Below are positions 520 to 18,475 of a stretch of 34,986 nucleotides of DNA, piece by piece; within the stretch, counting starts at the first letter, position 1, and the number at the start of each line of letters is the position of its first letter. Origin of the DNA: an uncultured Coriobacteriaceae bacterium (lineage in GTDB: Bacteria; Actinomycetota; Coriobacteriia; Coriobacteriales; Coriobacteriaceae); contig CASFXG010000010.1 of the NCBI GenBank assembly GCA_949298635.1, positions 1 to 34,986 of the forward strand, written 5' to 3'. A model generated the notes under the pieces. It searched no databases and was not told the origin of the DNA. It saw only the letters and a list, made by a program, of their open reading frames with translations. The translations under genes were made by a program, and so were the position numbers.

Positions 520-2157
520 CTAGCCCTTCCTTCCGAGTGCGAAGATCTTGTCGGCGAGGATCACCTGCAGGAAGTCGTCGGACTTCCGCACGTCGATCCC
601 GTAAAGCTCCCGGATGCGCTCGGCGCGGTAGCGCACCGTCTTGGGGTGCAGGAACAGCTCGTCGGCGGTGTCCGGGTAGTTGAGGCTGTTCGCGCAGAGC
701 CGCGCCGCGGTGCGGAACAGGTCGTGGTTCTCCTCGTGCAGGCGCTTGAGCCGCGGGTCGATGAGGTCATCGAGCTGCGCGAGGTCGTCGGCTCCCAGGA
801 GCAGCTTGTAGATGCCCAGGTCGTCGAAGCGCAGGGACACGTTCCGATAGCTCGACCCGTCGAAGAGCCGGTAGGCGTTCATCACCTCGTTGTTCGCCGA
901 AGGGAGGCTGTAGCGGTCGACGGTGCTCGAGAGCACGGCGAAGTGCTCGAAGGGCGGCAGCGTGGACGAGGCGTGGAGCTCGTCGAGGATGCGCTGCACC
1001 TCATCCACGTCGATGCCCGAGAGCTCGCTTCTGAAGTTGCGCAGAATCACCAGGCGTTCGCCGTTGACGTACCAGACGATGCCGGGGTAGGCCGAGCGCA
1101 GCCGGCGCCGTATGGCCTGGTGCAGCTCGTCCTGGCGGTCGGCATCGCTCGGGTCTTCCAGCGTGGCGCGCACGAGCAGCGACTGGTAGCACGGGTAGCG
1201 GTCGATGTTCAGCAGCGCCAGCGCGTTGTCGATGCGCTCTCGCGTGGGGAAGCGCCCGAGCAGGAGGTCATGCACCGTGTTGTTGTTCTGGTAGAAGAGC
1301 TTCTGCTTCACGGCGTTCTGCTTGATGATCTCGATCTGCAGGAGGCTCACGATGTTTTCCACGAGCATGGTGTCGACAGGTGTGAGCTGCGCCGCGTCGC
1401 CATGGATGATGAGGTAGTAGTCGACCCCGTCCGAGCTGGGGATGCGGATGGCGAGGGCGTCACGCTCAGGGCGCTCGCCACCGTCTGCGCCTGCGCCATC
1501 GCCGCTCGCCGCGGCATCGTAAAAGAGCCGCGCGTCGAAGTACGCATGCGTCTGGTAGGGGCTCGGGTCGCGGCGGGCGAACGAGTACCCCGTGAACTCC
1601 GCGAGCGTGGCGTCGGTGCCCAGGCGGCGGTCGCGCTGGGAATCCAGGTAGGTGGTCTCGGCGTGGAGGGAGTTCTTGAGCGTGTTCAGGATGTAGGGGA
1701 TGGACGGTTGCTTGAGCGCGAGCGCCATGACGTGCTTGTGCGCCTCGTAGAAGCGGTTGAGCAGCGTCAGGTTCGAATCGAGGACGTGCCCGAGCACATC
1801 GGAGAGGATCGCCTCGTACTTGACCTCGGGCGACAGGCGGATGAGCGGCAGGTCGAAATCGTCGCAGAGCTCGATGATCTTCTGCGGAACCTCGTCGACC
1901 GCGCGTCCCAGCTTGATGGCGAAGGCGCCGATGCCGATGGTGCTCATGGTGCGGAAGAACCTGATCAGCCCGTTCTCGTCGAGGTTCATGAGGGCGAAGT
2001 AGCTTGAGATGATGAGCTGGTCGCGCCTGCCCCAGTTCTGGATGTCGGCGCCCTCGAGGATCATCGCGCTCGTGATCTCGTGATCGAGGAAGCCGCCGCC
2101 GGCGACGACCTGCGCGCCGGAGAACGAGGGAAGCGTGAGCATTTCTCTGACGAGCAA
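520..2157 (-). CDS. PucR-family transcriptional regulator
   Basis: A 545-residue regulator of the PucR/CdaR type. The N-terminal ~120 residues form the PucR ligand-sensing domain (LPSFSGAQVVAGGG near the start, then ILEGADIQNW and FDLPLIRLSPEVKYEAILSD). The middle is a degenerate GGDEF-like/GAF-like region. The C-terminal ~70 residues carry the HTH_30 domain (CANSLNYPDTADELFLHPKT then VRYRAERIRELYGID). A TTG start at 2155-2157 is chosen: it lies six bases after a strong AAAGGAG, and the protein then begins where PucR domains usually begin. An upstream in-frame ATG at 2289 would add 44 residues with no family similarity. It diverges from the allFG fusion gene, so it probably activates that cluster in response to a purine-breakdown metabolite such as allantoin or ureidoglycolate, as PucR does in Bacillus; that is inference. 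Confidence 0.88.
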   Translation of the reverse strand: MLVREMLTLPSFSGAQVVAGGGFLDHEITSAMILEGADIQNWGRRDQLIISSYFALMNLDENGLIRFFRTMSTIGIGAFAIKLGRAVDEVPQKIIELCDDFDLPLIRLSPEVKYEAILSDVLGHVLDSNLTLLNRFYEAHKHVMALALKQPSIPYILNTLKNSLHAETTYLDSQRDRRLGTDATLAEFTGYSFARRDPSPYQTHAYFDARLFYDAAASGDGAGADGGERPERDALAIRIPSSDGVDYYLIIHGDAAQLTPVDTMLVENIVSLLQIEIIKQNAVKQKLFYQNNNTVHDLLLGRFPTRERIDNALALLNIDRYPCYQSLLVRATLEDPSDADRQDELHQAIRRRLRSAYPGIVWYVNGERLVILRNFRSELSGIDVDEVQRILDELHASSTLPPFEHFAVLSSTVDRYSLPSANNEVMNAYRLFDGSSYRNVSLRFDDLGIYKLLLGADDLAQLDDLIDPRLKRLHEENHDLFRTAARLCANSLNYPDTADELFLHPKTVRYRAERIRELYGIDVRKSDDFLQVILADKIFALGRKG

Positions 2158-2431
2158 GTGGGTCTCCTTTGAACGTATGGCTTCCCACGATATACGCACC
2201 ACGGGCGCTTTAGGCCCGTCACTATCGCTATTTAGTATATCTGTTGCATCTACGTGCTCATTTCCCTTGCGGACAAAGTGTGGGCGCAAATCCTATCCGC
2301 CAAGCGCATCGAGTTGTGTCGCCGAGATGTTTCAATACGGGCAATCGCAGTGTGCGGATGCGTCCCGGGATTGCCGCACGAGCGCCCCGCAGCGGCGCGT
2401 CTGTATCCAACGTACGAACAGGAGGATCGCG
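2158..2431. promoter_or_regulatory. divergent control region between PucR-type regulator and allFG
   Basis: A 274-base non-coding region between two divergent starts. An A/T-rich island around 2225-2250 contains a -10-like TATACT on the minus strand (2233-2238). A short inverted repeat ACGGGC/GCCCGT (2201-2206 with 2214-2219) would form a hairpin in the regulator mRNA leader. On the plus strand AGGAGG at 2420-2425 is the ribosome site of allFG. No convincing -35/-10 pair was found for the plus strand. The PucR-type operator probably lies here, but I cannot point to it. Confidence 0.4.
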
Positions 2432-5400
2432 ATGCTGCAAACGGTAATCAAGCCGAATTCCTACCAGGATTCCATCAACTTGATGCTCCTCACGAACAAG
2501 ATCAACACCCTTGACGGCGTGATCCAGAGCCAGATCATGATGGGCACGGACGCCAACAAGGACATCTACAAGGCGGCTGGCCTGCTCACCGACGAGGCTG
2601 CTGCGGCCAACCCCTCCGACATGGTCATCGTGGTGGAGAGCGACGACGCCGCCATCCTCGACACGGTGCTCGCCGAGACCGAGGCCTTCCTCGCCGACCT
2701 TTCGGTCAAGAAGGAAGCCGCCGGCGGCCCCGCTGAGGCTACTAGCTGGGAGGAGGCCATAGCTCAGCTGCCCGATGCCAACATGGCGCTCTTCTCCATT
2801 CCCGGTGAGTATGCCGCTCCCGAGCTCGAGCGCGCGCTCGATCTGGGCCTCAACGTGTTCAGCTTCACCGACAACGTCCCGCTCGAGGATGAGGTTCGCC
2901 TGAAGCAGAAGGCGCATGAGAAGGGCCTGCTCTTCATGGGTCCCGACTGCGGCACCGGCGTCATCTCGAGCGTGCCGATCGCCTTCACCAACGTCATCAA
3001 CCCGGGCAACATCGGTATCGTGGGCGCTTCGGGCACGGGCATCCAGGAGGTCACCTGCATGATCGACCGCCTGGGCGGCGGTTGCGTGCATGCCATCGGC
3101 ACCGGCGGCCGCGACCTCAACGAGAAGGTCGGCGCGGTGACGGTGAAGGACGCCATCGTGGCACTCGAGCATCACGACCCCACCGACGTCATCTGCGTCA
3201 TCTCCAAGCCGCCTGCGCCCGCCGTGCGCGACGAGGTCGTCGACCTGCTGGAGAAGTGCAGCAAGCCGGTCGTCGCCATCTTCATCGGTGAGAAGCCCGA
3301 GGCGCATCAGGGCAAGGTCTACCTCGCCCACACGCTCGAGGAATGCGCGCGCATCGCCGTGGACCTCGCGAACGGCGCGGAGGTCAAGAAGAACTACCTC
3401 GAGCCGCTGAGCCTTACCGTTGACGAGCCGCTCGGCGCGGACAAGACCGTGATTGGCCTGTACTCCGGTGGCACCCTCGCCGGCGAGGCCGCCATGATGA
3501 TCACCGAGGCGCTCGACCTCGGCGAGATCATCAAGGAGGACGGCTATATGCTGCGCCATGGCGGCTACGACGTCATCGACCTCGGCGACGACGTGTACAC
3601 CCAGGGCCGTCCGCACCCCATGATCGATCCGGACGTCCGCATCAAGATGATGCGCGATTACGCCGCGATGGACACGACCGGTGTCATCGTCTTCGACTGC
3701 GTACTGGGCTATGGCTGCCATCCGGATATGGCCTCCGCGCTCGCTCCGGTCATCGCCGAGTGCAAGGCGGCCGCCGCGGCCGAGGGTCGCACAGTGCACT
3801 TCGTGGGCACCGTCGTGGGCACGAGCCACGATCCGCAGGACTACGAGCGCTCCATCAAGATCCTCGAGGATGCCGGCGCCATTATGGAGGAGTCCAACGC
3901 CATGGCCGTCCGCGCTGCGCTTGCCATGAAGGGCGTGGAGTTCACCGAGGAAGACCGCGAGGTCGTGCCGTACGAGGTCAAGGATGCGTCGCCCTTGCCC
4001 GAGCCGAGCGAGGCCGTCATGGAGCTCCTCACCACCAAGCCGCGTGTGATCAACGTGGGCGTCGAGAGCTTCAACGACCCGCTGCGCGCCTACGGTGCCA
4101 AGAGCGTCCAGTACACCTGGAAGCCCATGGCCGGCGGTAACAAGCGGATGATTCACCTGCTCACCGAGCTCGCAAAGGTCGAGGGCATCGACGAAGCCAA
4201 CGAGCGCATTTGCCAGCGCTTCAAGGAGAGCCAGCCGCAGCTCGTGGACGTCGTGGTGGCCAAGGACGTCATCCCTGAGCTCAATCGCGCGAAGAAGACG
4301 CTCCTGCATGCCGGTCCCCCGATCACTTGGGAGAACATGCAGGGCCCCATGCGCGGTTCATGCATCGGCGCCGCGCTCTTCGAGGGTTGGGCCGAGACGG
4401 AGGAAGAGGCCGTCAAGATGCTCGAGGTCGGCGAGGTCGAGTTCATTCCGTGCCACCACTGCCATGCCGTAGGCCCCATGGGCGGCATCACCTCCGCCAA
4501 CATGGCCGTGCTCAAGGTCGTGAACCTTGCGGACGACACCACCGCCTACTGCACCATGAACGAGGGCATCGGCAAGGTGCTGCGTTTCGGCGCGTACAGC
4601 CAGGAGGTCGTCGACCGCCTGCACTGGATGGCCGACGAGCTCGGTCCCGTGCTCTCCAAGGCGCTCAAGCTTTCCGATGGCGGTATCAACCTGAACGTCC
4701 TCATCGCGCGCGCTATCACCCAGGGCGACGAGTTCCATCAGCGCAACATGGCCGCGACGCTCAACCTCCTCAAGGAGCTGGCGCCGCTCATCGTGAAGAC
4801 GGACGCTTCCGAGGATGCTAAGGAGCGCGTGATCCAGTTCCTGGCCGATACGGATCAGTTCTTCCTGAACATCATGATGGCCATGGGCAAGGCGATCGTT
4901 GACTACGTGCGCAAGGACGAGGAGGGTTGCGTGGTCTCGACCATGACTCGCAACGGCTATGAGTTCGGCGTGCGCGTGACGGGCCTCGGCGATGAGTGGT
5001 TCTGCGCGCCGGTGAACACGCCCATGGGCCTGTACTTCACCGGGTTCACGGCTGAGGATGGCTGCCCCGACAACGGCGACTCCTCCATTACCGAGACCGT
5101 GGGCGTGGGCGGCATGGCCATGGTCGCGGCGCCTGGCGTGACCCGTTTCGTGGGTGCCGGCGGGTTCGAGGACGCGCTCAGCATCTCCAACGAGATGGAG
5201 CAGATCTGCGTCGAGCACAACCCCAACTGGTCCATCCCCACGTGGGACTTCAAGGGCACGTGCCTGGGCATCGACATCCGCAAGGTCGTCGCCACGGGCA
5301 TCACGCCCATCATCAACACCGGCATCGCTCACAAGAAGGCCGGCATCGGCCAGGTGGGCGCCGGTACGGTGCGCGCACCGCTCGCGTGCTTCGAGAAGGC

Positions 5401-5437
5401 CCTCGAGGCGTACTGCGCCAAGCTCGGCATCGAGTAG
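2432..5437 (+). CDS. allFG: oxamate transcarbamylase AllF-AllG fusion (FdrA + DUF1116)
   Basis: A 1001-residue protein made of two proteins that are separate in E. coli. Residues 1 to ~525 match FdrA/AllF, a relative of the succinyl-CoA synthetase alpha chain: GIVGASGTG at 195-203, GTGGRDL at 223-229, GLYSGGTLAG at 342-351. Residues from ~532 (RVINVGVESF) to the end match DUF1116/YlbE/AllG, including CHHCHAVGPMGG from residue 674. In E. coli AllF, AllG and AllH form the transcarbamylase that converts oxalurate plus phosphate to oxamate and carbamoyl phosphate. The start ATG follows AGGAGG by six bases; further upstream in-frame sequence is non-coding leader. It heads the cluster and is followed after 15 bases by allH. 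The fusion is uninterrupted, with no stop or frameshift at the junction, and has no sign of internal re-initiation. Confidence 0.9.
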   Translation: MLQTVIKPNSYQDSINLMLLTNKINTLDGVIQSQIMMGTDANKDIYKAAGLLTDEAAAANPSDMVIVVESDDAAILDTVLAETEAFLADLSVKKEAAGGPAEATSWEEAIAQLPDANMALFSIPGEYAAPELERALDLGLNVFSFTDNVPLEDEVRLKQKAHEKGLLFMGPDCGTGVISSVPIAFTNVINPGNIGIVGASGTGIQEVTCMIDRLGGGCVHAIGTGGRDLNEKVGAVTVKDAIVALEHHDPTDVICVISKPPAPAVRDEVVDLLEKCSKPVVAIFIGEKPEAHQGKVYLAHTLEECARIAVDLANGAEVKKNYLEPLSLTVDEPLGADKTVIGLYSGGTLAGEAAMMITEALDLGEIIKEDGYMLRHGGYDVIDLGDDVYTQGRPHPMIDPDVRIKMMRDYAAMDTTGVIVFDCVLGYGCHPDMASALAPVIAECKAAAAAEGRTVHFVGTVVGTSHDPQDYERSIKILEDAGAIMEESNAMAVRAALAMKGVEFTEEDREVVPYEVKDASPLPEPSEAVMELLTTKPRVINVGVESFNDPLRAYGAKSVQYTWKPMAGGNKRMIHLLTELAKVEGIDEANERICQRFKESQPQLVDVVVAKDVIPELNRAKKTLLHAGPPITWENMQGPMRGSCIGAALFEGWAETEEEAVKMLEVGEVEFIPCHHCHAVGPMGGITSANMAVLKVVNLADDTTAYCTMNEGIGKVLRFGAYSQEVVDRLHWMADELGPVLSKALKLSDGGINLNVLIARAITQGDEFHQRNMAATLNLLKELAPLIVKTDASEDAKERVIQFLADTDQFFLNIMMAMGKAIVDYVRKDEEGCVVSTMTRNGYEFGVRVTGLGDEWFCAPVNTPMGLYFTGFTAEDGCPDNGDSSITETVGVGGMAMVAAPGVTRFVGAGGFEDALSISNEMEQICVEHNPNWSIPTWDFKGTCLGIDIRKVVATGITPIINTGIAHKKAGIGQVGAGTVRAPLACFEKALEAYCAKLGIE

Positions 5438-5452: not shown

Positions 5453-6346
5453 ATGGGCATCACCTCCGTGAGCGACTACGCATGGGGCCACCTGCCGCAG
5501 CATGCGACGGGTGCGGTGCACAGCGTCTTCTCTTCGAGCTTCAATGTCGAGCTCGACGGGCTGCTGCTGCATCTGGGGAGCAGCGACGCGCCGCTCTCCT
5601 GCCTGGGCGCGCAGGTTGATGCGGGGGAGATGTCCTTGCTGGTCGATACCGTGGCGCAGGGTGACCGCGTCGTCGTCTGCGACGGGGTGCTCCGCATCTA
5701 CGACCGTGCGCGCGTGAGCGAGCTCGATCTTGGCTCAGCGCCGGTGCGGTGCATGCACGTCCCCGAGCTCGCAGGTGCGTTTCCGAGCGACATCGATGTC
5801 GCTCTATTGCGCGAGATCGGTTCGCTCGACCTTATCGACCGGGCCGGTTTGCCATGGCCCGACCGGTCTCGGAGCGCTGTGTCCGAGCTCGCGCGGTTCT
5901 CGGCCATGTGCCGTCGCATGCTTGACAAGGGAGAACGGTCTTGCGGCGATGCGCAGGTTGAGGCTGCGGAGCGTGCTATGCGCGCAGCCGTCGAATACCT
6001 GGTGGGTAGGGGCCTCGGCCTCACCCCGTCGGGCGATGACGTGCTCATGGGCTTCGGCACGGCGCTTCGTTTCCTGTATTGCGGGGGCGTTTCGAGCATG
6101 GCGCAAGCCTTTTTCGAGACGGTATCAAGTGTGGTTTCCGGTAAAACCACCGCGGTGAGCGAGGCATATTACCGGGCCATGGGGGAGGGGTACGCAAACG
6201 AGGACTGCCTCGATCTGCTCGCTGTAGTGCGCGCGATGGACGAGCAGGCGCTCCCCGATGCGCTGGCACGGGTGCTCGAGCTTGGGCACACCTCGGGGGC
6301 CGACAGCCTCCTAGGGTTTGGCGCAGCGTTCTGTTGTTTGTTGTAG
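5453..6346 (+). CDS. allH: AllH, DUF2877 subunit of oxamate transcarbamylase
   Basis: A 297-residue DUF2877 protein (YlbF/AllH in E. coli). The diagnostic motifs are LTPSGDDVLMGF (residues 190-201), a KTTAVSEAYYRAM segment just after, and GHTSGADSLLGF near the C-terminus (from 278). The length is typical of the family. It lies 15 bases downstream of the allFG fusion, with only a weak GCGAGG-like ribosome site, so translation may be coupled. In E. coli all three parts are needed for oxalurate/oxamate transcarbamylase activity, so this gene together with the fusion gives a full enzyme. It is cytoplasmic with no membrane helix. Confidence 0.88.
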   Translation: MGITSVSDYAWGHLPQHATGAVHSVFSSSFNVELDGLLLHLGSSDAPLSCLGAQVDAGEMSLLVDTVAQGDRVVVCDGVLRIYDRARVSELDLGSAPVRCMHVPELAGAFPSDIDVALLREIGSLDLIDRAGLPWPDRSRSAVSELARFSAMCRRMLDKGERSCGDAQVEAAERAMRAAVEYLVGRGLGLTPSGDDVLMGFGTALRFLYCGGVSSMAQAFFETVSSVVSGKTTAVSEAYYRAMGEGYANEDCLDLLAVVRAMDEQALPDALARVLELGHTSGADSLLGFGAAFCCLL

Positions 6347-9323: not shown

Positions 9324-10375
9324 ATGCTTGGTACTCGCGACGAACTCAAAAAGCTCATGAAGAAGAAGTTCATGGCCGCCGGCATGCACGACGACCATGC
9401 CGATGACATGGCCGAGGTGCTCGCCTGGTCGAGTGAGCGCGGCCTGCACTCCCATGGCGAGGTGCGCGTGGAGTACTACACCGAGCACATCTCCAAGGGC
9501 GGCATGACGGTTGACCCCAAGGTCGCCTGGACCCAGACCGGCCCGCGCTCCGGCATCCTCGACGCCGACAACGGCTGCGGCTATCCCTTCGCCATCGAGG
9601 GTATGCAGAAGGTGATCGACATGGCCAAGGAGCATGGTATCGGCTTCGTGGGCGTGGCGAACGTCTCGCACACCGGCGCCATCGGCTACTACACCGAGAT
9701 GGCAGCCAAGCAGGGCATGATCGGCCTCTCCTGCACCCAGTCCGACCCCATGGTCATCCCCTACGGCGGCGCCGAGCCCTTCTATGGTACAAACCCCATC
9801 GCCATCGCCGCGCCCACGGCCGACGGCCGCATCGTGAGCTTCGATATGGCCACGACCGTGCAGGCCTGGGGCAAGATCCTCGACGCCAAGAGCGCCGGCC
9901 GCTCCATCCCCGAGGGCTGGGCGGTCGATGAGGACGGTCGTCCCGTCACCGACCCGCACAAGGTGAACGCCCTCGTGGCCATCGCCGGCCCCAAGGGCTA
10001 CGGCCTCATGATGATGGTCGACATCCTCTCCGGCGTGCTGCTGGGAGTGCCGGCGGGCAAGCATGTCTCGTCCCTGTACCACGACCTCTCCGAGGGGCGT
10101 CGCCTGGGTCACCTGAACGTTGCCATCAACCCCGAGTTCTTCTGCGGCGACCAGAACTTCCGCGAGCATATGTCCGAGGTGCTGGACGAGCTCAACGCGA
10201 CGAAGCCGGGCGTGGGCTTCGACAAGGTCTACTGGCCGGGCGAGCGCGCGCAGAAGCGCATCCAGGCCACGAAGGACGTCGGCGGCATCGAGATGTGGAC
10301 GACATCTACGACTACCTCGTCTCCGACGACCTGTACCGCCACAGCTGGGACCACAAGAACCGCTTCGCGGAGTAG
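9324..10375 (+). CDS. allD: ureidoglycolate dehydrogenase-type oxidoreductase (AllD), frameshifted near the 3' end
   Basis: A member of the malate/L-lactate dehydrogenase 2 (LDH2_MDH2) family, best fitting AllD, which oxidises ureidoglycolate to oxalurate with NAD. Seen: RGLHSHGEVRV near residue 40 (family catalytic His), NVSHTGAIGYY, PYGGAEPFYGTNPIAIAAP, and GPKGYGLMMMVDILSGVLLG. The start ATG follows AAGGAGG. The frame that starts at 9324 runs past GGIEM and becomes low-complexity Thr/Ser sequence up to a stop at 10604. The adjacent frame from 10298 reads DDIYDYLVSDDLYRHSWDHK and stops at 10375. One missing base at about 10293-10298 explains this. The repaired protein is 350 residues, the family's normal length. 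It may be a real mutation or a sequencing error. If real, the last ~26 residues are replaced. Confidence 0.8.
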
Positions 10376-10472
10376 GGGTGCTGCGCGCGGTGGGTTGGCC
10401 GGGGCGACCTGCCGCCGGCCATCCTACCGACTAGCCATTCTGCATAAACGCATACGCGGGACACTGGAATAT

Positions 10473-10514
10473 GCATGGCGCTCGCCAGGAGCGGCGCCCT
10501 GGCGAGCGCCATGC
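10473..10514 (+). terminator. 17-bp perfect hairpin between allD and carbamate kinase
   Basis: GCATGGCGCTCGCCAGG (10473-10489) is perfectly complementary to 10498-10514, with an 8-base loop. It lies 98 bases after the allD stop. No long U run follows (CACTTTACC), so it could be a terminator of a less usual kind, an mRNA stabiliser or a small repeat element. Confidence 0.55.
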
Positions 10515-10617
10515 CACTTTACCGCTCTGACGTGCGATTCAAGAAACATCCATAGCGCATCGCGTTGGGCGGCGATTATCGACCGCTCAGCCGGTTCGCA
10601 ATGAAATATGTTGCTGG

Positions 10618-10651: not shown

Positions 10652-10722
10652 TGCTAGCCTACTCGCGCGACGCTGCGTGAGTGGTGCATGTTGCGTGTAA
10701 TCGCTTCGAGAAAGGAACAGCC

Positions 10723-11685
10723 ATGCCCAAGACCCTTGAAGTGCCCAATCGCGTCGTCGTCGCTTTGGGCGGCAACGCTCTGGGCGATACGCCGGAAGAG
10801 CAGATCGAGCGCGCCAACAATACAGCTAAGGCGCTCATCGGCCTCATTGAGCAGGGCAACGAGATCATCATCACCCATGGCAACGGCCCGCAGGTCGGCA
10901 TGATTCAGAATGCGTTCGCTGCCGCCCACGATGCCATCAACACGCCCGCCATGGACCTGCCCGAGTGCGGCGCCATGAGCCAGGGCTATATTGGCTATCA
11001 CCTGCAGCAGGCCATCGGCCGCGAGATGCATCGTCGCTATAAGCGCTGGCACGTCGCGACCGTCGTGACCCAGATCGAGTGCGATCCGGACGATCCGGCG
11101 TTCCAGAACCCCACGAAGCCCATCGGCCCCTTCTACACCGAGGAGCAGGCCAAGGAGATCATGGCGGAGGATCCCTCCAAGATCTTCGTCGAGGACTCCG
11201 GCCGTGGTTGGCGTCGCGTCGTGGCCTCCCCCGAGCCCAAGAAGATCGTCGAGCAGCCCTCGATCCTGAACCTGCTCGATAACGAGTTCATCGTCATCGC
11301 CTGCGGTGGCGGCGGCATCCCCGTGGTGCGCGACTACACCGATCACGGCGTCTACAAGGGCGTTCCCGCCGTTATCGACAAGGACCTGGGCGGCGAGCTT
11401 CTGGCCGAGGACTGCAAGGCCGACGTACTCTTCCTGCTCACGGCTGTCGAGCATGTGGCGATCAACTTCGGTAAGCCCAACCAGGAGAACCTTACCGACA
11501 TTACGGCCGACGAGGCCGAGCGCCTGGCCGACGAAGGCCAGTTTGGCAAGGGTTCCATGGAGCCGAAGGTGCGCGCCGCCATCAAGTTCGCGCGCAGCCT
11601 CCCCGGCCGCGTGTGCATCATCGGCGCGCTCGATAAGGCCGCCGAGACCATGTCCGGCCTCTCCGGCACGCGCATCCACGCATAG
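10723..11685 (+). CDS. arcC: carbamate kinase
   Basis: A 320-residue amino-acid-kinase-fold protein of the carbamate kinase family. The motifs are VALGGNALGD (residues 13-22), THGNGPQVGM (around 49-58), an ACGGGGIPVV segment and PAVIDKDLGGELLAED, which are characteristic of ArcC/AllK. The ATG has AAAGGA seven bases upstream. The enzyme makes ATP, ammonia and CO2 from carbamoyl phosphate and ADP. As it follows AllD and AllFGH, its main role here is probably the energy-yielding last step of oxalurate breakdown (AllK role in E. coli). No arginine deiminase or ornithine carbamoyltransferase gene lies nearby, which argues against an arginine deiminase operon. It has its own promoter. Confidence 0.93.
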   Translation: MPKTLEVPNRVVVALGGNALGDTPEEQIERANNTAKALIGLIEQGNEIIITHGNGPQVGMIQNAFAAAHDAINTPAMDLPECGAMSQGYIGYHLQQAIGREMHRRYKRWHVATVVTQIECDPDDPAFQNPTKPIGPFYTEEQAKEIMAEDPSKIFVEDSGRGWRRVVASPEPKKIVEQPSILNLLDNEFIVIACGGGGIPVVRDYTDHGVYKGVPAVIDKDLGGELLAEDCKADVLFLLTAVEHVAINFGKPNQENLTDITADEAERLADEGQFGKGSMEPKVRAAIKFARSLPGRVCIIGALDKAAETMSGLSGTRIHA

Positions 11686-12036: not shown

Positions 12037-12864
12037 ATGGCTGAGGCTGCACGGTATTGTCGGGCGTGCGGAAAGAAGCTCAAGGGGGGAACGGCGTTCT
12101 GCCCGTACTGTGGCGAGCGCGTCGAAGCGCCGGGCGACTTGCCCGCCCCTGAGGTGCACGTTCCTGAAGCCGAGATTCAGACAGTCGCGCAGGACACGCA
12201 GGAAGCGGCGTCGAAGCAATCGCCCGCACCCGCGTCGGCGTCGCAGGCTCCCGCTACACACACGCGCGTCTTCAATCCCGTCACCACGCCTGCCCGCGCC
12301 TCCGAGCGCTTAGGTTCGTCGTCACTCGTTACGCTCGGCGTTTGGGTCACGGCGGGAATCGGTCTCGTTTCCGCAGCCGTCGTGCTCGTTTCGTTCATCG
12401 GTTCGCTCGGCCTGGCGGTCGCGGAGCTTTCCGTGTTTGCCGTGCCGCAGACGGCGCTCGGCGCGGCCATCTACGTTGTGGGATCCCTTGCGCTCATCTA
12501 CCTCATCGGGGGTCTGGGTATGGGGCTGTTGCGGCGCGTTCTTGCGCAAAGGCAACTGAGGCCGGGGCGCGTCGTTGCCGCGTTCGTCCGGGCACTCGTC
12601 GTCGCAGTAATCGTGGCCGCCGGGATGCTGTTCGTCGTGCCTGCGCTCGACGACGCCTCTCTGGCGCATCCGCTCGCGGCTTTCTTTGCCGGCAGCTCGT
12701 CGGGCGTCGCGAAGGGCTTGTTCCTCTTGTTCAGCCGCCTGTGGCCGATGCTCTCGAAGATGCTGCCCGTATTCGGTGTCGAGGCGGTGCTGCTCTTCGC
12801 GCTGCAGCACCTTATCCGGCGCGGAACGGTTACGACTTCACCTGCACCGCCGCAGGCGAGTTGA
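12037..12864 (+). CDS. zinc-ribbon multi-pass membrane protein, unknown function
   Basis: A 275-residue protein. Residues 5-25 form a CxxC-x10-CxxC zinc ribbon (CRAC at 8-11, CPYC at 22-25). An Ala/Pro/Thr-rich linker to about 100 follows, then about four or five hydrophobic segments (LVTLGVWVTAGIGLVSAAVV, a segment at AIYVVGSLALIYLIGGLGMG, then VVAAFVRALVVAVIVAAGML and a final one). The ATG at 12037 is chosen because the ribbon follows at once. An earlier in-frame ATG at 11995 lacks a ribosome site and adds 14 unlike residues. The next gene, also starting with a zinc ribbon, begins 52 bases on, so they are probably one operon. No family function is known to me. Confidence 0.7.
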   Translation: MAEAARYCRACGKKLKGGTAFCPYCGERVEAPGDLPAPEVHVPEAEIQTVAQDTQEAASKQSPAPASASQAPATHTRVFNPVTTPARASERLGSSSLVTLGVWVTAGIGLVSAAVVLVSFIGSLGLAVAELSVFAVPQTALGAAIYVVGSLALIYLIGGLGMGLLRRVLAQRQLRPGRVVAAFVRALVVAVIVAAGMLFVVPALDDASLAHPLAAFFAGSSSGVAKGLFLLFSRLWPMLSKMLPVFGVEAVLLFALQHLIRRGTVTTSPAPPQAS

Positions 12865-12916: not shown

Positions 12917-15900
12917 ATGAAACGCTGCAAAAACTGCAAAGCGCCACTCGATAAGCAAGCCACCGCGTGCCCGCAGTGTGGAACCCCGGTTCGCAGCATG
13001 AAGCTGAGACATAAACTGCTCATTGCGCTTGCGGTGCTTCTGCTCGTCATTGGTGGAATCATAGGCGCGCTCTTCGCAACGGGTCACGGCGATCTCATCA
13101 CCGGCTTGCCCGCGCGCATCGCTGCGGCGTTCAGCGGCGACGCGAACGGTGCGGGTCGCGCGGGTACGGACGGTACCGGCGGCTCGAGCGGGGGAGGCGC
13201 GACGGGTGGCGGTGCAAGCCCATCCGAGACGGACTTCGTCTTGCTGGGAAGCGGGTTCACCGACCGCACCATCGGCTCCGAGGATGATGCTCGCGCCGCG
13301 GTTGAGGATGCCGCGCCGGCGCTCGGCATGGAGGATGCGGACGCAGAGCTGGGGACGTGCGCCTCGAACGAGGTGATGGGCAATAGCTACTATCGCTTCG
13401 CGCAGGAATACGAGGGCATCACGGTGTACGGTCGCAGCGTGGTGGTGAGTGCCGACGGCTCGGGCGAGGCGCTTGGCCTCACGAGCAACTACGCCGCGGT
13501 GGGAGACATCGAGACCGAGCCGGCGATCGCAGCGGAAGAGGCTGAGGAGCGGGTCATTGCCAGCGTCGACGATGTCCAGTGGACGATGTCCGAGGGGCTC
13601 ACCATCTATTCGCTCTACGACACGGACCCGTTCGCCGCATGGCAAATTCTTGTCGTCACGGGCGATGGCGCGTACCGCTACTTCGTATCTGCGGAGACGG
13701 GCAGCGTCGTCGCGCGCGAGGTTGCGGGCAATACGGCGACGGGCAGGGACTTGAACGGCGATACCGTGCGATTCAACACGTCGCGCCAGGGCGATGGCTT
13801 CGCGCTCGTGGATTCCGAGCGCGGCATTTCCGCCTATGATGCGGAGGGCGATGGCCGTACCGAGATCTATTCGCATATCACTATGACCGGAGAAGACGGC
13901 GGTCGCGTTCGCCTTGCGCCCAGCGCGGCGGGCGGCGGGTATGTATGGGAGATCGAAGGCCATAGTTCAGCGACGCTCCTCGTGAACACGATGACCGGCC
14001 AATACCTGATCGAATATGAAGATGGGACGCGCGAGGCGATTGCGTCGACGTCGTTCGAGTATGGCGATCACCTCGTTACGAGCGAGAGCGATAGCGATTG
14101 GTCGAATGCGGGCGCGAGCACGCTTGTGGACTCCACAGCGACCGCGTACGACTATTATCTCGAGGTGCTCGGCTGGGAAAGCTACGACGGTGCGGGCGGC
14201 CCCATCCACGCGGTCTACGGCTTGCCCGAAAGCAATGCGTTCTCGTGGGTGCCCACGGGAGACTACGCGCTCCTCGCGGCGGGCGGCAGCATGCCGTACC
14301 CTGGGCGCATGGTGATCGGCCATGAATTCACGCACGCTGTCGTGAGCGCCACCTGCGCGCTCTCGGGCGATGAGACCGAGCAGGCGGGGCCGCTCAACGA
14401 GGCGGTTTCGGATCTTATTGGCGTTGCCATCTCGGATATGAACGATAACGGCATCGCCGATAACTCATATGACTGGGATATCGAGGGTACGGACAGAAAT
14501 CTTGAGGATCCGGAATCGAGCAATCTGCCGGACAGCGTGAATAGTAGGTGGTACTGGGACGAGAACCTCAACCCGCAGGCGGGATCCGACGACGACCCTT
14601 ATGAAGAGCACCACAATGCGACGGTCATAGGGCATGCGGGGTATCTCATGTGCGCGGAGGGATCCGAGGCGGCGGTGGTCGATGGCGACGCGCTCAGCAC
14701 CGAGGAGATGGCGAAGCTCGTGTTCGTCTCGTTCTTTACCATGCCCGCCGACTGCACCTTCAACGAATTCGCGACCATCATGCAGAACGTGGCGCAGACG
14801 TTCTGCTCGCAGGGGACGCTCACGCAGGCTCAGGCCGATCGTGTGACCTCGGCATTTGTGAATGTCGGGCTCTATGGGTATGACCGCGCCCTCACACTGG
14901 AGCCGGATGCAACGCTTTCGGTGCTCGACGTGAACGGTGAGCCCTACGGGTCGTATACCGTGGCGCTTGAAGCGGTATATGTGAAGGGCTCGCAGACCGC
15001 CGCCGAGCTCAACCAGAGCGGCGATATGCAGCGCACCGCCTCGTCGACCGACCCGCTGCCGCTCGACTTCCCGGCGGAGGGCGTCTACCGTATGACGTTG
15101 ACCGACGGCGCGAACTCCGCACGCTCCGAGGAGTTCGTCGTGTCGGTGCTCGCGCGCGGGGAGAGCTCTTGCGAGCTGCAGACCGATTTCGGCGGTGTGG
15201 ATCAGGCGTCTGCCCAGGCGGAGCGCACGCGGGTCATCACGGGGGAGCAAGACATCTCGTTGGTGCTCGACGTATCGAGCAGCATGAGCGGGAGCCGTAT
15301 CGAGCAGCTGCGCAGCGCGGCGCAGGGCTTCGTGGATACGGCGTTCGCAGATTCGAGCCAGGTGCGCGTCGGCATGGTCGCCTACAACCAGGACGTGAGC
15401 GTGCGCGTTCCGCTCGCGGTGGAGCCGGGGAGCCTCGAGAGCGAGATCGCATCGCTCGATGCGAGTGGGAGCACCAATATCGAGCTTGCGCTTCAAACCG
15501 CGCGGGCGCAGCTGGAATCGGGTACGGCAGACCGGAAGATCATCGTGCTCATGTCGGACGGCGAGCCGACGGACGGTGCTCAAGGCGACGACCTCATCGC
15601 GGTGGCAAGCGAGCTGAAGGAAGCTGGCTTCAAGATTTATACCGTGGGTGTTGAGCAAGCTCCGGGTGGTGAAGAGCTGCTCCGTGCCATGGCGAGCGAC
15701 GGTTGCTATTACTCGGTCGATGCCGAGAGTCTGAGTGCGTTCTTCGCGCAGATCGCTACCGAGATCAGCGGCGTGCCGTATATGTATGTGCGTATCGAGT
15801 GCCCGGTCGAGGTCACGGTGAGCTACAACGGCGAAACCCTGTCTTCGGCGGGAGATAATCCGAGCACGCTGACATCCTTCGGCTCGCTTGCGTTTGAGGC

Positions 15901-16327
15901 GGTAGAAGGCCAGGCGGCGAGCGACGGGACGCAAGAAACCGTCAAGATCTTGCGCCTGCGCGAAGGCGTGCCCTACACGGTGGAGATTGAGGGCACGGGC
16001 ATGGGCACGATGGACTACGTCATCGCGTTCGTGGACGAGCAGGGCGATTACGCGGATTTCCGCACGTTCGACGGGATCGAGATTACCAACCGCACCCAGA
16101 TCGAGACGGTGGCGGAATATGCGAGTGAGACGTTGCTCCAGGTCGACGAGGACGGCGACGGCGTTTGGGATCGCTCGTACCGGGCGGGGGTGAACGAAAA
16201 TGCCGTGCTTGTCGATAACGGCTGGGCGGCTATGGTGGTGTGCGCGGGCGCGGTCGGTGCGTTCGCGCTCATCGTCGCAGTGCGCGGGCGCTCGCTTCTG
16301 CGTCTGCTGAAACAAGCTCGTCGCTAG
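12917..16327 (+). CDS. doubly membrane-anchored zinc-ribbon / M4 metalloprotease / VWA protein
   Basis: A 1136-residue protein. In order: N-terminal zinc ribbon (C4, C7, C18, C21); transmembrane anchor 33-54; Gly/Ser-rich linker; a thermolysin-type propeptide region with YYRFAQEYEGITVYG near 155; an M4 peptidase domain with HEFTH at 469-473, the third zinc ligand in GPLNEAVSD (E495) and a candidate catalytic His (H565/H566, HHNATVIGHAGYL); a calcium-like DMNDNG loop at 507; a von Willebrand A domain with MIDAS DVSSSMS at 785-791; an EF-hand-like DEDGDGVWD at 1077; and a second transmembrane helix at about 1101-1121 with a basic tail. All M4 catalytic residues I can place are present, so activity is likely. 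Both ends would be cytoplasmic and ~1050 residues extracellular. No strong ribosome site precedes the ATG. The usual M4 enzymes are secreted, so this architecture is odd. Confidence 0.85.
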   Translation: MKRCKNCKAPLDKQATACPQCGTPVRSMKLRHKLLIALAVLLLVIGGIIGALFATGHGDLITGLPARIAAAFSGDANGAGRAGTDGTGGSSGGGATGGGASPSETDFVLLGSGFTDRTIGSEDDARAAVEDAAPALGMEDADAELGTCASNEVMGNSYYRFAQEYEGITVYGRSVVVSADGSGEALGLTSNYAAVGDIETEPAIAAEEAEERVIASVDDVQWTMSEGLTIYSLYDTDPFAAWQILVVTGDGAYRYFVSAETGSVVAREVAGNTATGRDLNGDTVRFNTSRQGDGFALVDSERGISAYDAEGDGRTEIYSHITMTGEDGGRVRLAPSAAGGGYVWEIEGHSSATLLVNTMTGQYLIEYEDGTREAIASTSFEYGDHLVTSESDSDWSNAGASTLVDSTATAYDYYLEVLGWESYDGAGGPIHAVYGLPESNAFSWVPTGDYALLAAGGSMPYPGRMVIGHEFTHAVVSATCALSGDETEQAGPLNEAVSDLIGVAISDMNDNGIADNSYDWDIEGTDRNLEDPESSNLPDSVNSRWYWDENLNPQAGSDDDPYEEHHNATVIGHAGYLMCAEGSEAAVVDGDALSTEEMAKLVFVSFFTMPADCTFNEFATIMQNVAQTFCSQGTLTQAQADRVTSAFVNVGLYGYDRALTLEPDATLSVLDVNGEPYGSYTVALEAVYVKGSQTAAELNQSGDMQRTASSTDPLPLDFPAEGVYRMTLTDGANSARSEEFVVSVLARGESSCELQTDFGGVDQASAQAERTRVITGEQDISLVLDVSSSMSGSRIEQLRSAAQGFVDTAFADSSQVRVGMVAYNQDVSVRVPLAVEPGSLESEIASLDASGSTNIELALQTARAQLESGTADRKIIVLMSDGEPTDGAQGDDLIAVASELKEAGFKIYTVGVEQAPGGEELLRAMASDGCYYSVDAESLSAFFAQIATEISGVPYMYVRIECPVEVTVSYNGETLSSAGDNPSTLTSFGSLAFEAVEGQAASDGTQETVKILRLREGVPYTVEIEGTGMGTMDYVIAFVDEQGDYADFRTFDGIEITNRTQIETVAEYASETLLQVDEDGDGVWDRSYRAGVNENAVLVDNGWAAMVVCAGAVGAFALIVAVRGRSLLRLLKQARR

Positions 16328-16379: not shown

Positions 16380-16417
16380 CACCGCCGCGCGGTTTCACGA
16401 CATCTTGCGCGGCGGTG
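16380..16417 (+). terminator. hairpin after the M4-VWA gene
   Basis: CACCGCCGCGC (16380-16390) pairs perfectly with GCGCGGCGGTG (16407-16417), an 11-bp stem with a 16-base loop, 53 bases after the stop. No U run follows. A short palindrome AACTATAGTT lies just upstream at 16359-16368. Confidence 0.45.
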
Positions 16418-16499: not shown

Positions 16500-17354
16500 A
16501 TGTTCTGTCCTTATTGCGGCACCCAACTGCCAGACGGTTCGGCCTTTTGCGGCAACTGCGGCAAGCCGCTGAGCCAGCAGCCGGCGGGCAACGCGGCTCC
16601 CGCTGCGCAGCCCGCTGGCATGCCGCCCGCGCCGGCACCCCAGCCGGGAAACGTGCCTCCCGCGCCGGCACCCCAGCCCGGAAACGTGCCGCCCGCGACG
16701 CCCCCAGACTTCAACCAGCAGACCCCGTTCGATGCCAAGCCCGCCAAGAAGCCGTTCCAAGTGACGCGTGGCATGACGATCGGTATCCTCGCAGTTGCGG
16801 TCGTCGCCGTGGTGGCTATTGTCCTCGCGGTGACCGGCGTTTTCGGCGGCGGTGGCGCGGGCGAGTCGAGCGCTAACGGTGTTGCCGACAGGCTCGGCGG
16901 CCTATACAACAATCTGGTTCAGAGCGATTTTGATAGCGATGCGTTCGAGTCCTTCGGCAACGGAATGCTCGACCTGCTTCCCGAGCAGCTGGTAGATGGA
17001 CAGCTCGAAAGCATGGGCTACGATTCCCGCGAAGACTTCTCTGAAGACATCGGGGAACAATACGGCTATGGGATGTCGTATTACGGCAATGTCCTCAGCT
17101 ATATGACGATCGAATTCGACATCACGACCGGCGATGCGCTCGACGACACTCAGCTCTACAATATAAACACCCAGCTTGAACAGTATGGCCTCGAGGCAAC
17201 CAGCGGCTTTTTGCTCGAGGCTTCCATTTCGGCGACGCTCACGGAGGATTACAACGGCTATAGCGCCGGTGAGCAGGAGTCTACTGAAACAAGCACGGGA
17301 ATGGCTGCCGTAGAGATCGATGGTCGCTGGTACTTGTATCCCGGCGTGTATTAA
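16500..17354 (+). CDS. zinc-ribbon single-helix membrane protein, paralogue 1
   Basis: A 284-residue protein beginning with a zinc ribbon (CPYC at 3-6, CGNC at 17-20). A Pro/Ala-rich linker to about 85 holds two exact 11-residue repeats APAPQPGNVPP (44-54 and 55-65). One hydrophobic helix (~92-113) ends in VTGVFGGGG. A C-terminal domain of ~165 residues follows, predicted outside the cell, rich in Asp/Glu/Tyr and Gly, ending DGRWYLYPGVY. GGAAGG precedes the ATG. The C-terminal domain has the look of a DUF4854/lumazine-like accessory domain, but I do not recognise it with certainty. It is about 35-40% similar by eye to the next gene. Function unknown. Confidence 0.75.
   Translation: MFCPYCGTQLPDGSAFCGNCGKPLSQQPAGNAAPAAQPAGMPPAPAPQPGNVPPAPAPQPGNVPPATPPDFNQQTPFDAKPAKKPFQVTRGMTIGILAVAVVAVVAIVLAVTGVFGGGGAGESSANGVADRLGGLYNNLVQSDFDSDAFESFGNGMLDLLPEQLVDGQLESMGYDSREDFSEDIGEQYGYGMSYYGNVLSYMTIEFDITTGDALDDTQLYNINTQLEQYGLEATSGFLLEASISATLTEDYNGYSAGEQESTETSTGMAAVEIDGRWYLYPGVY
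16629..16694 (+). repeat. two 33-base tandem repeats inside the linker of paralogue 1
   Basis: The linker sequence APAPQPGNVPP is coded twice in a row, with only third-position differences. Such Pro-rich repeats change number readily by slippage and set the distance between ribbon and membrane. Confidence 0.7.
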
Positions 17355-17425: not shown

Positions 17426-17608
17426 GCATGTGGCTCCGTGGGCGGCGTTGGAAGCCCTTTCAAAGAATTAACCGGGAACCGGCTGTAAATGTAGTTACAC
17501 TAGTAGCACGTACGGCTAGGGGTTTCGCGACCGCTGTGCCGAGGTATGGCGAGCATGCATGGCCTGTTTGGCGTGAGGCGCTGCAGCGGCTGCGAGAAAG
17601 GGGTACCC

Positions 17609-18475
17609 ATGTTCTGTCCCTACTGTGGCACACAACTACCCGACGGCGCGGCCTTTTGCGGCACCTGCGGCAAGCCGGTGGGGAAGCAGTCGGCCGTCGC
17701 CGCGGCCCCCTCCGAACAGTCGGCTCCCGGGGTTCCCGCTGGCATATCGGCTGTGCCTGTTTCCCAAGCGACGGCTCCTGTGCCGCAGCCCGGCTACATC
17801 CCGTCGGCGCAGTCTTCGACGCCGCCGGATTTCAACCAAACTCCCGTCGTCGTCCAGGGCGCCAAGAGACCCTTCCGGGTGACGCGCGGCATGACGATCG
17901 GCGTGCTTGCGGCGGCAGCGGTTGTCGCCGTGGCGATCATCGCGTTCGCCGTGACCGGGATCTTTGGCGGTAGCGGCGCGAACAGCCCTGAGGGCGTGGC
18001 CAACAGGTTGGGAGCCGTATACACCGATCTGCTCCAGAGCGACTTCGATGAAGCTGCGCTCACGAGATTCGGCAATGATGCGCTCGATCTTTTGCATCCT
18101 TCGATGGTGGAGGAATCCATCAGAAGCACGGGCTACCACAGCCGCGATGAGTACGCGGAGGGTTTCGGCGAACGATACGGCTCTGCCTTTGCCAGCCTTG
18201 GCAGCATCTCTGAGTACGTCGACTTCACCGTCGATATCAGAGTGGGCGACAAACTTACCAGCTACCAGCTTGCGACCGTGAACGATTCCCTTGCTCGATA
18301 TGGGATTGAGGCGACGGATGGCTACAAGCTTGGCGGCACGATGACCGCAACGGTGCTGCGGGACTTCATGGGCTACAGCGCCGGCGACGTCGAAACGACC
18401 GACATGAGCTCGACGGGCATCATCGTTGTCAAGATCGACGGCAGCTGGTATCTGGTTACCGACATGTATGTGTAG
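17609..18475 (+). CDS. zinc-ribbon single-helix membrane protein, paralogue 2
   Basis: A 288-residue tandem paralogue of the preceding gene. Both start MFCPYCGTQLPDG and continue AFCG-x-CGKP, both have a Pro-rich linker ending in TPPDFNQ, the helix starts RGMTIG in both, and the C-terminal domain ends GSWYLVTDMYV versus GRWYLYPGVY. The start is ATG 17609 after AAAGGGG. The frame is open farther upstream, but that part is out of line with the paralogue. The linker here lacks the 11-residue repeats. The two copies are divergent enough that the duplication is old. Function unknown; a surface sensor or accessory protein for the neighbouring M4-VWA protein is possible. Confidence 0.78.
   Translation: MFCPYCGTQLPDGAAFCGTCGKPVGKQSAVAAAPSEQSAPGVPAGISAVPVSQATAPVPQPGYIPSAQSSTPPDFNQTPVVVQGAKRPFRVTRGMTIGVLAAAAVVAVAIIAFAVTGIFGGSGANSPEGVANRLGAVYTDLLQSDFDEAALTRFGNDALDLLHPSMVEESIRSTGYHSRDEYAEGFGERYGSAFASLGSISEYVDFTVDIRVGDKLTSYQLATVNDSLARYGIEATDGYKLGGTMTATVLRDFMGYSAGDVETTDMSSTGIIVVKIDGSWYLVTDMYV

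Follow-up and report, generated by a model that had tools for sequence, protein, structure and literature searches.

A predicted surface zinc protease of Coriobacteriia on a VWA-containing cassette shared with other hydrolases

The open reading frame at positions 12917-16327 (+ strand) of the stretch of DNA analysed here (the window, 34,986 nucleotides) begins with ATG and encodes a membrane protein of 1136 residues (P0001), in which a thermolysin-like (family M4) protease is followed by a VWA domain. On balance we favour, by inference from its sequence, a surface-displayed zinc protease carried on an exchangeable stalk. More tentatively, the protein may belong to a modular surface system of Coriobacteriia, in which a constant stalk made up of the VWA, the beta domain and the helix, served by a dedicated membrane partner with a zinc ribbon and several helices, would take interchangeable hydrolases (M4, S8, GDSL and class-3 lipase) and dock them to a conserved element of the cell's own envelope. 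Each domain is known; we found no description of the arrangement in the open-access papers searched. Unrelated hydrolases on one stalk with one membrane partner would provide a testable case of Gram-positive gut bacteria keeping degradative enzymes at their surface with neither a sortase nor a lipid anchor. This cassette and its partner carry the interest, beyond what a previous reading of the letters alone (the sequence-only reading) had seen.

Judged by its conservation, the frame is a real gene and not a chance open reading frame, since a full-length co-linear copy with 67-68% identity is present in [Collinsella] massiliensis (L020/L025), a same-genus relative of the window genome that NCBI taxonomy places in Enorma, and the overall dN/dS between these two Enorma-group species is ~0.26. 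The host genome (G000, Coriobacteriaceae; 1.93 Mb in 83 contigs) has one M4 gene. More distant full-length relatives with 37-39% identity occur in L026, L027 and L028, and 12 of the 396 genomes in a class-wide search of Coriobacteriia match at 1e-20; the genome search that had been proposed thus finds the M4-VWA architecture elsewhere in the class (L025-L028). Conservation is uneven along the chain. The VWA domain is the best conserved part between the two Enorma-group species (90% identical, dN/dS 0.08), whereas the M4 N-lobe is only 48% identical (dN/dS 0.27), and a constant VWA beside a changing M4 lobe points to a conserved VWA ligand.

The chain opens with a predicted zinc ribbon (residues 1-26; 12917-12994) of two CxxC pairs. 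Its cysteines 4, 7, 18 and 21 do not vary among six aligned sequences, of which five have a VWA tail and one has none; its Pfam match (residues 1-24, E 3.5e-5) scores 23.6, below the cut-off of 27. It is followed by membrane helix 1 (residues ~33-56; 13013-13084; hydropathy 2.46), preceded by basic residues and predicted to be a signal anchor with the N-terminus inside. The FTP/PepSY propeptide (residues 106-271; 13232-13729) contains an FTP match (154-187, E 7e-6, 26.2 bits against a cut-off of 21) and a PepSY match below its cut-off (229-267, E 0.005), and self-cleavage would be expected at ~271-272. The M4 catalytic domain (residues 272-652; 13730-14872) matches Peptidase_M4 (273-476, E 2e-10, 41.7 bits against 22.4) and Peptidase_M4_C (488-651, E 2e-10, 41.5 bits against 24.4). 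Next come an immunoglobulin/transthyretin-like (CnaB-like) domain (residues 659-755; 14891-15181), the VWA domain (residues 771-942; 15227-15742; Pfam match 779-940, E 6e-25, above the curated cut-off), a beta domain (residues 943-1099; 15743-16213) and, at 16226-16324, membrane helix 2 (residues ~1104-1122; hydropathy 2.54) with a basic cytoplasmic tail; all these features lie on the + strand. The M4, VWA and propeptide domains read earlier from the letters are thus borne out, and for the ribbon the four invariant cysteines go with a sub-threshold match; the Ig-like and beta domains were absent from that reading.

The active site follows the family pattern. HEFTH (469-473), with E495 and D499 in NEAVSD, corresponds to the HEXXH motif plus the NExxSD glutamate ligand of family M4, and H565, preceded by D560, aligns with the histidine of the bacillolysin VHTNSG motif, the equivalent of thermolysin H231. 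H469, E470, H473, E495, D499, D560 and H565 are invariant in the six aligned sequences, in agreement with the sequence-only claim that all key M4 residues are present. The nearest solved structures in the PDB are bacillolysin/Gentlyase, aureolysin and a neutral protease, all thermolysin-like. Of the VWA metal site (DxSxS...T...D), D785, S787, S789, T853 and D881 are invariant in ten sequences. The beta domain, conserved in ten cassette proteins, ends in a calcium-type DEDGDGVWD loop (1077-1085) and matches no Pfam family and no PDB sequence; we name it here as a conserved, un-annotated domain.

Structure prediction, which had been proposed as a check, was useful in one region. The AF2 models, built from only two sequences (the window protein and L020), reached a mean pLDDT of 49.8 for the VWA-beta-helix part and 37.1 for the propeptide-M4-Ig part; they were too poor to confirm the M4 or beta-domain folds, and Foldseek matches were used for the VWA only. 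The sole usable stretch is residues 659-755 (pLDDT 72-88), whose model aligns (VIA-align Z 6-8) with transthyretin-like domains, the carboxypeptidase D C-terminal domain and FbaB, and the domain between M4 and VWA accordingly looks like a transthyretin/CnaB-type beta-sandwich, a common fold. In the low-confidence model the beta/VWA region resembles pilus-tip adhesin folds (Foldseek). As in the adhesins SpaC and RrgA, a metal-site VWA would adjoin beta domains at the cell surface; unlike them, the window protein has a helix anchor instead of a sortase signal and is attached to enzymes.

The two strong hydropathy segments (~33-56 and ~1104-1122) are each flanked by basic residues on the predicted cytoplasmic side, and by the positive-inside rule this favours the two membrane helices and cytoplasmic ribbon proposed before. 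The pattern of secreted M4 enzymes, a cleavable N-terminal signal and no C-terminal helix, does not appear to apply, as a ribbon precedes helix 1 and helix 2 is followed by a basic tail. With the thermolysin family (bacillolysin, aureolysin, thermolysin) the protein shares the FTP/PepSY propeptide, the M4 N- and C-domains and HEXXH with the glutamate and catalytic histidine, but it adds a ribbon and an uncleaved-looking signal anchor before the propeptide, and Ig-like, VWA and beta domains and a helix after the catalytic domain. Other Coriobacteriia M4 proteins (L087-L101, L036) have the propeptide and catalytic domain in common with it, but carry secretion-signal or lipobox N-termini and neither ribbon nor VWA; the exception among the sampled M4 proteins of the class is L103, with a ribbon-helix N-terminus and no VWA tail. 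The contrast with normally secreted M4 enzymes is weaker in this class than had been drawn, because many of the other sampled Coriobacteriia M4 proteins are of the lipobox type; by their N-termini, membrane-held M4 is common in Coriobacteriia, through lipid rather than a helix. TcaA/YvbJ-type single-pass membrane proteins likewise combine a CxxC zinc ribbon, a helix and an outer domain; in the window protein the outer part is instead an enzyme plus VWA, and a second helix is added. Zinc ribbons commonly cap membrane proteins of Coriobacteriia on the cytoplasmic side, and no special role need be sought for this one.

The last ~365 residues, comprising VWA, beta domain and helix, form a cassette that is found behind different enzymes. 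Pfam searches of the relatives place M4 heads on it in L025-L028, a subtilase S8 head in L031, GDSL lipase heads in L032 and L034 (and, by its sequence, in L035) and a class-3 lipase head in L033. The catalytic motifs of the other heads are intact by eye, and every cassette protein retains the C-terminal helix and basic tail, irrespective of its head. Searched with a profile covering the beta domain and last helix, 13 of the 396 class genomes match, patchily spread over several families; elsewhere in the phylum the profile gave only partial, VWA-free matches. The distant phylum members G425 and G617 were rejected as carriers, having only a beta-domain-like stretch, as were the best-matching plasmid candidates from Monoglobus and Subdoligranulum, whose common part is the VWA only. 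Two giant single chains (L029, 6087-10334, - strand; L030, 8773-13065, + strand) contain a ribbon, several helices, an internal LTGC lipobox-like motif standing before the VWA, the VWA itself and the beta domain, and continue past it with further helices and a long outer C-terminal region.

Upstream of the protease gene lies the putative partner (12037-12864, + strand), a protein of 275 residues from the ATG at 12037 (the frame is open from 11995) with a zinc ribbon and ~4 membrane helices. At each M4- or lipase-headed locus that could be read, a partner-type gene (zinc ribbon plus 3-4 helices) precedes the cassette gene: directly upstream in the window, L025, L026, L027, L028 and L033, and two genes upstream in L032 and L034, with its 3' end visible in L035. 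In the S8 locus the upstream frame has only a short ribbon and one helix. The gap between partner and cassette gene is 52 bp in the window and ~6-13 bp in L025-L028, according to which start is taken, and in L033 stop and start overlap by 4 bp. A conserved one-helix protein of ~230 residues, with no Pfam match, stands between the partner and the GDSL-VWA gene only (L032, 6463-7149; L034, 1413-2087; L035, 7570-8271, - strand), and its junctions in the three GDSL loci also overlap.

Zinc-ribbon matches number 12-42 per genome in these bacteria, so a nearby ribbon gene alone means little. Among 197 genomes, full-length matches to a partner profile were found only in G000, G002, G013 and G056, each beside a cassette gene, and the other matches listed all extend over the ribbon and part of what follows it; since these cassette loci themselves supplied the profile, diverged partners would escape it. 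Partner identity is 58% between the sister species and 23-27% between genera, and with a partner so poorly conserved direct VWA-partner binding would be no more than a possibility. In L029 and L030 ribbon, helices and cassette are joined in one chain. The helix part of these chains matches the partner with 95% probability, against 0.1-0.2% for unrelated membrane proteins, while a single-sequence comparison matches best over the ribbon only; this weak similarity of the helix region to the partner is suggestive. Two further zinc-ribbon, one-helix proteins are encoded 3' of the M4-VWA gene (16500-17354 and 17546-18475, + strand), and similar ribbon proteins surround the relatives in L026-L028.

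In a tree of 24 M4 heads from Coriobacteriia the ribbon-bearing proteins group together, but a single clade of VWA-tailed heads is rejected (AU p 0.003), since a tandem M4 paralogue in L026, with a PdaC/DUF3298 tail instead of VWA, nests among them. This is consistent with the VWA tail having been lost or exchanged at least once while the M4 head stayed. The VWA-gene tree rejects neither M4-headed (AU p 0.38) nor GDSL-headed (AU p 0.16) cassettes as one clade, and exchange of heads therefore rests on architecture and not on that tree.

M4 zymogens cut their own propeptide/catalytic-domain junction, the enzyme removing the propeptide itself. For the window protein we propose that the chain is exported with both termini inside and that the propeptide keeps M4 inactive up to the point at which M4 itself cleaves the junction near residue 271. 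This cut would detach the N-terminal anchor, and the active enzyme would remain at the outer face of the membrane with the C-terminal helix as its sole tether. The VWA and beta domain would serve as a metal- and calcium-dependent stalk or dock on a conserved component of the cell's own envelope, perhaps via the partner protein, and present whichever enzyme is attached. The sequence-only description of a chain tied at both ends agrees with the two predicted helices but fits poorly as a working state, and it probably describes the zymogen, because self-removal of the propeptide would free the N-terminal anchor. Likewise, the suggestion that the chain cuts itself free is likely for the N-terminal tether and not for the C-terminal helix. 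A shed enzyme, for which M4 would cut at the propeptide junction and again close to the C-terminal helix, the anchors being delivery devices only, is improbable: related M4 enzymes are established to self-process, and the linkers flanking the Ig-like domain and preceding the last helix offer possible cleavage sites, but the C-terminal helix and basic tail also accompany lipase heads, which are unable to cut a protein stalk.

The sequence-only proposal that the VWA captures a protein which the adjoining M4 then cuts, in a chain tied at both ends, is weakened and now seems unlikely, if a little less so than shedding. VWA domains commonly serve to bind proteins, this one keeps an intact metal site, and the modelled resemblance to pilus-tip adhesins would suit such a role; however, relatives carry the same cassette on a subtilase, on GDSL lipases and on a class-3 lipase, the M4 substrate lobe has diverged far more than the VWA, and self-cleavage would break the N-terminal tie. 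Because the cassette also sits on a subtilase and lipases, the VWA ligand is unlikely to be the protease substrate and is more likely something common to all cassette systems; a constant stalk with a changing enzyme, found on lipases too, argues for a component of the cell's own envelope. The swapping of protease and lipase heads on a part that stays constant, the fast evolution of the head on a constant stalk and the patchy distribution would also suit a weapon or predation device used by contact on neighbouring cells or host surfaces. We regard this as less likely again than shedding, as no export or injection machinery and no immunity-like gene tied to particular heads accompanies the cassette, defence models gave no match for the M4 protein or its partners (for the S8 relative the only match is to a generic subtilase model), and proteases and lipases equally suit nutrition or envelope care. 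Least probable is an ordinary nutritional ectoenzyme, a surface protease that feeds an asaccharolytic gut bacterium and whose domains have no special function. The M4 proteins of the class are otherwise secreted or lipoproteins, which would fit, but such a role leaves the constant, highly conserved VWA cassette and the co-encoded partner unexplained.

Just 3' of the M4-VWA gene lies a perfect 11-bp inverted repeat (16380-16417), with no clear T-run on the + strand. Further upstream, one long frame (2135-5437, + strand) contains CoA-binding, CoA-ligase and AllG domains, so that oxamate carbamoyltransferase appears to have its FdrA/AllF and AllG parts fused; the frame is followed by genes for AllH (5453-6346), an AllD-like dehydrogenase (9324-10604) and carbamate kinase (10681-11685). 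By this content, the long frame together with the genes for AllH, the AllD-like enzyme and carbamate kinase makes up an allantoin/oxamate pathway cluster. In the sister species, two tandem carbamate kinase genes (L025, 4968-5933 and 6391-7353, - strand) are present where the window has one.
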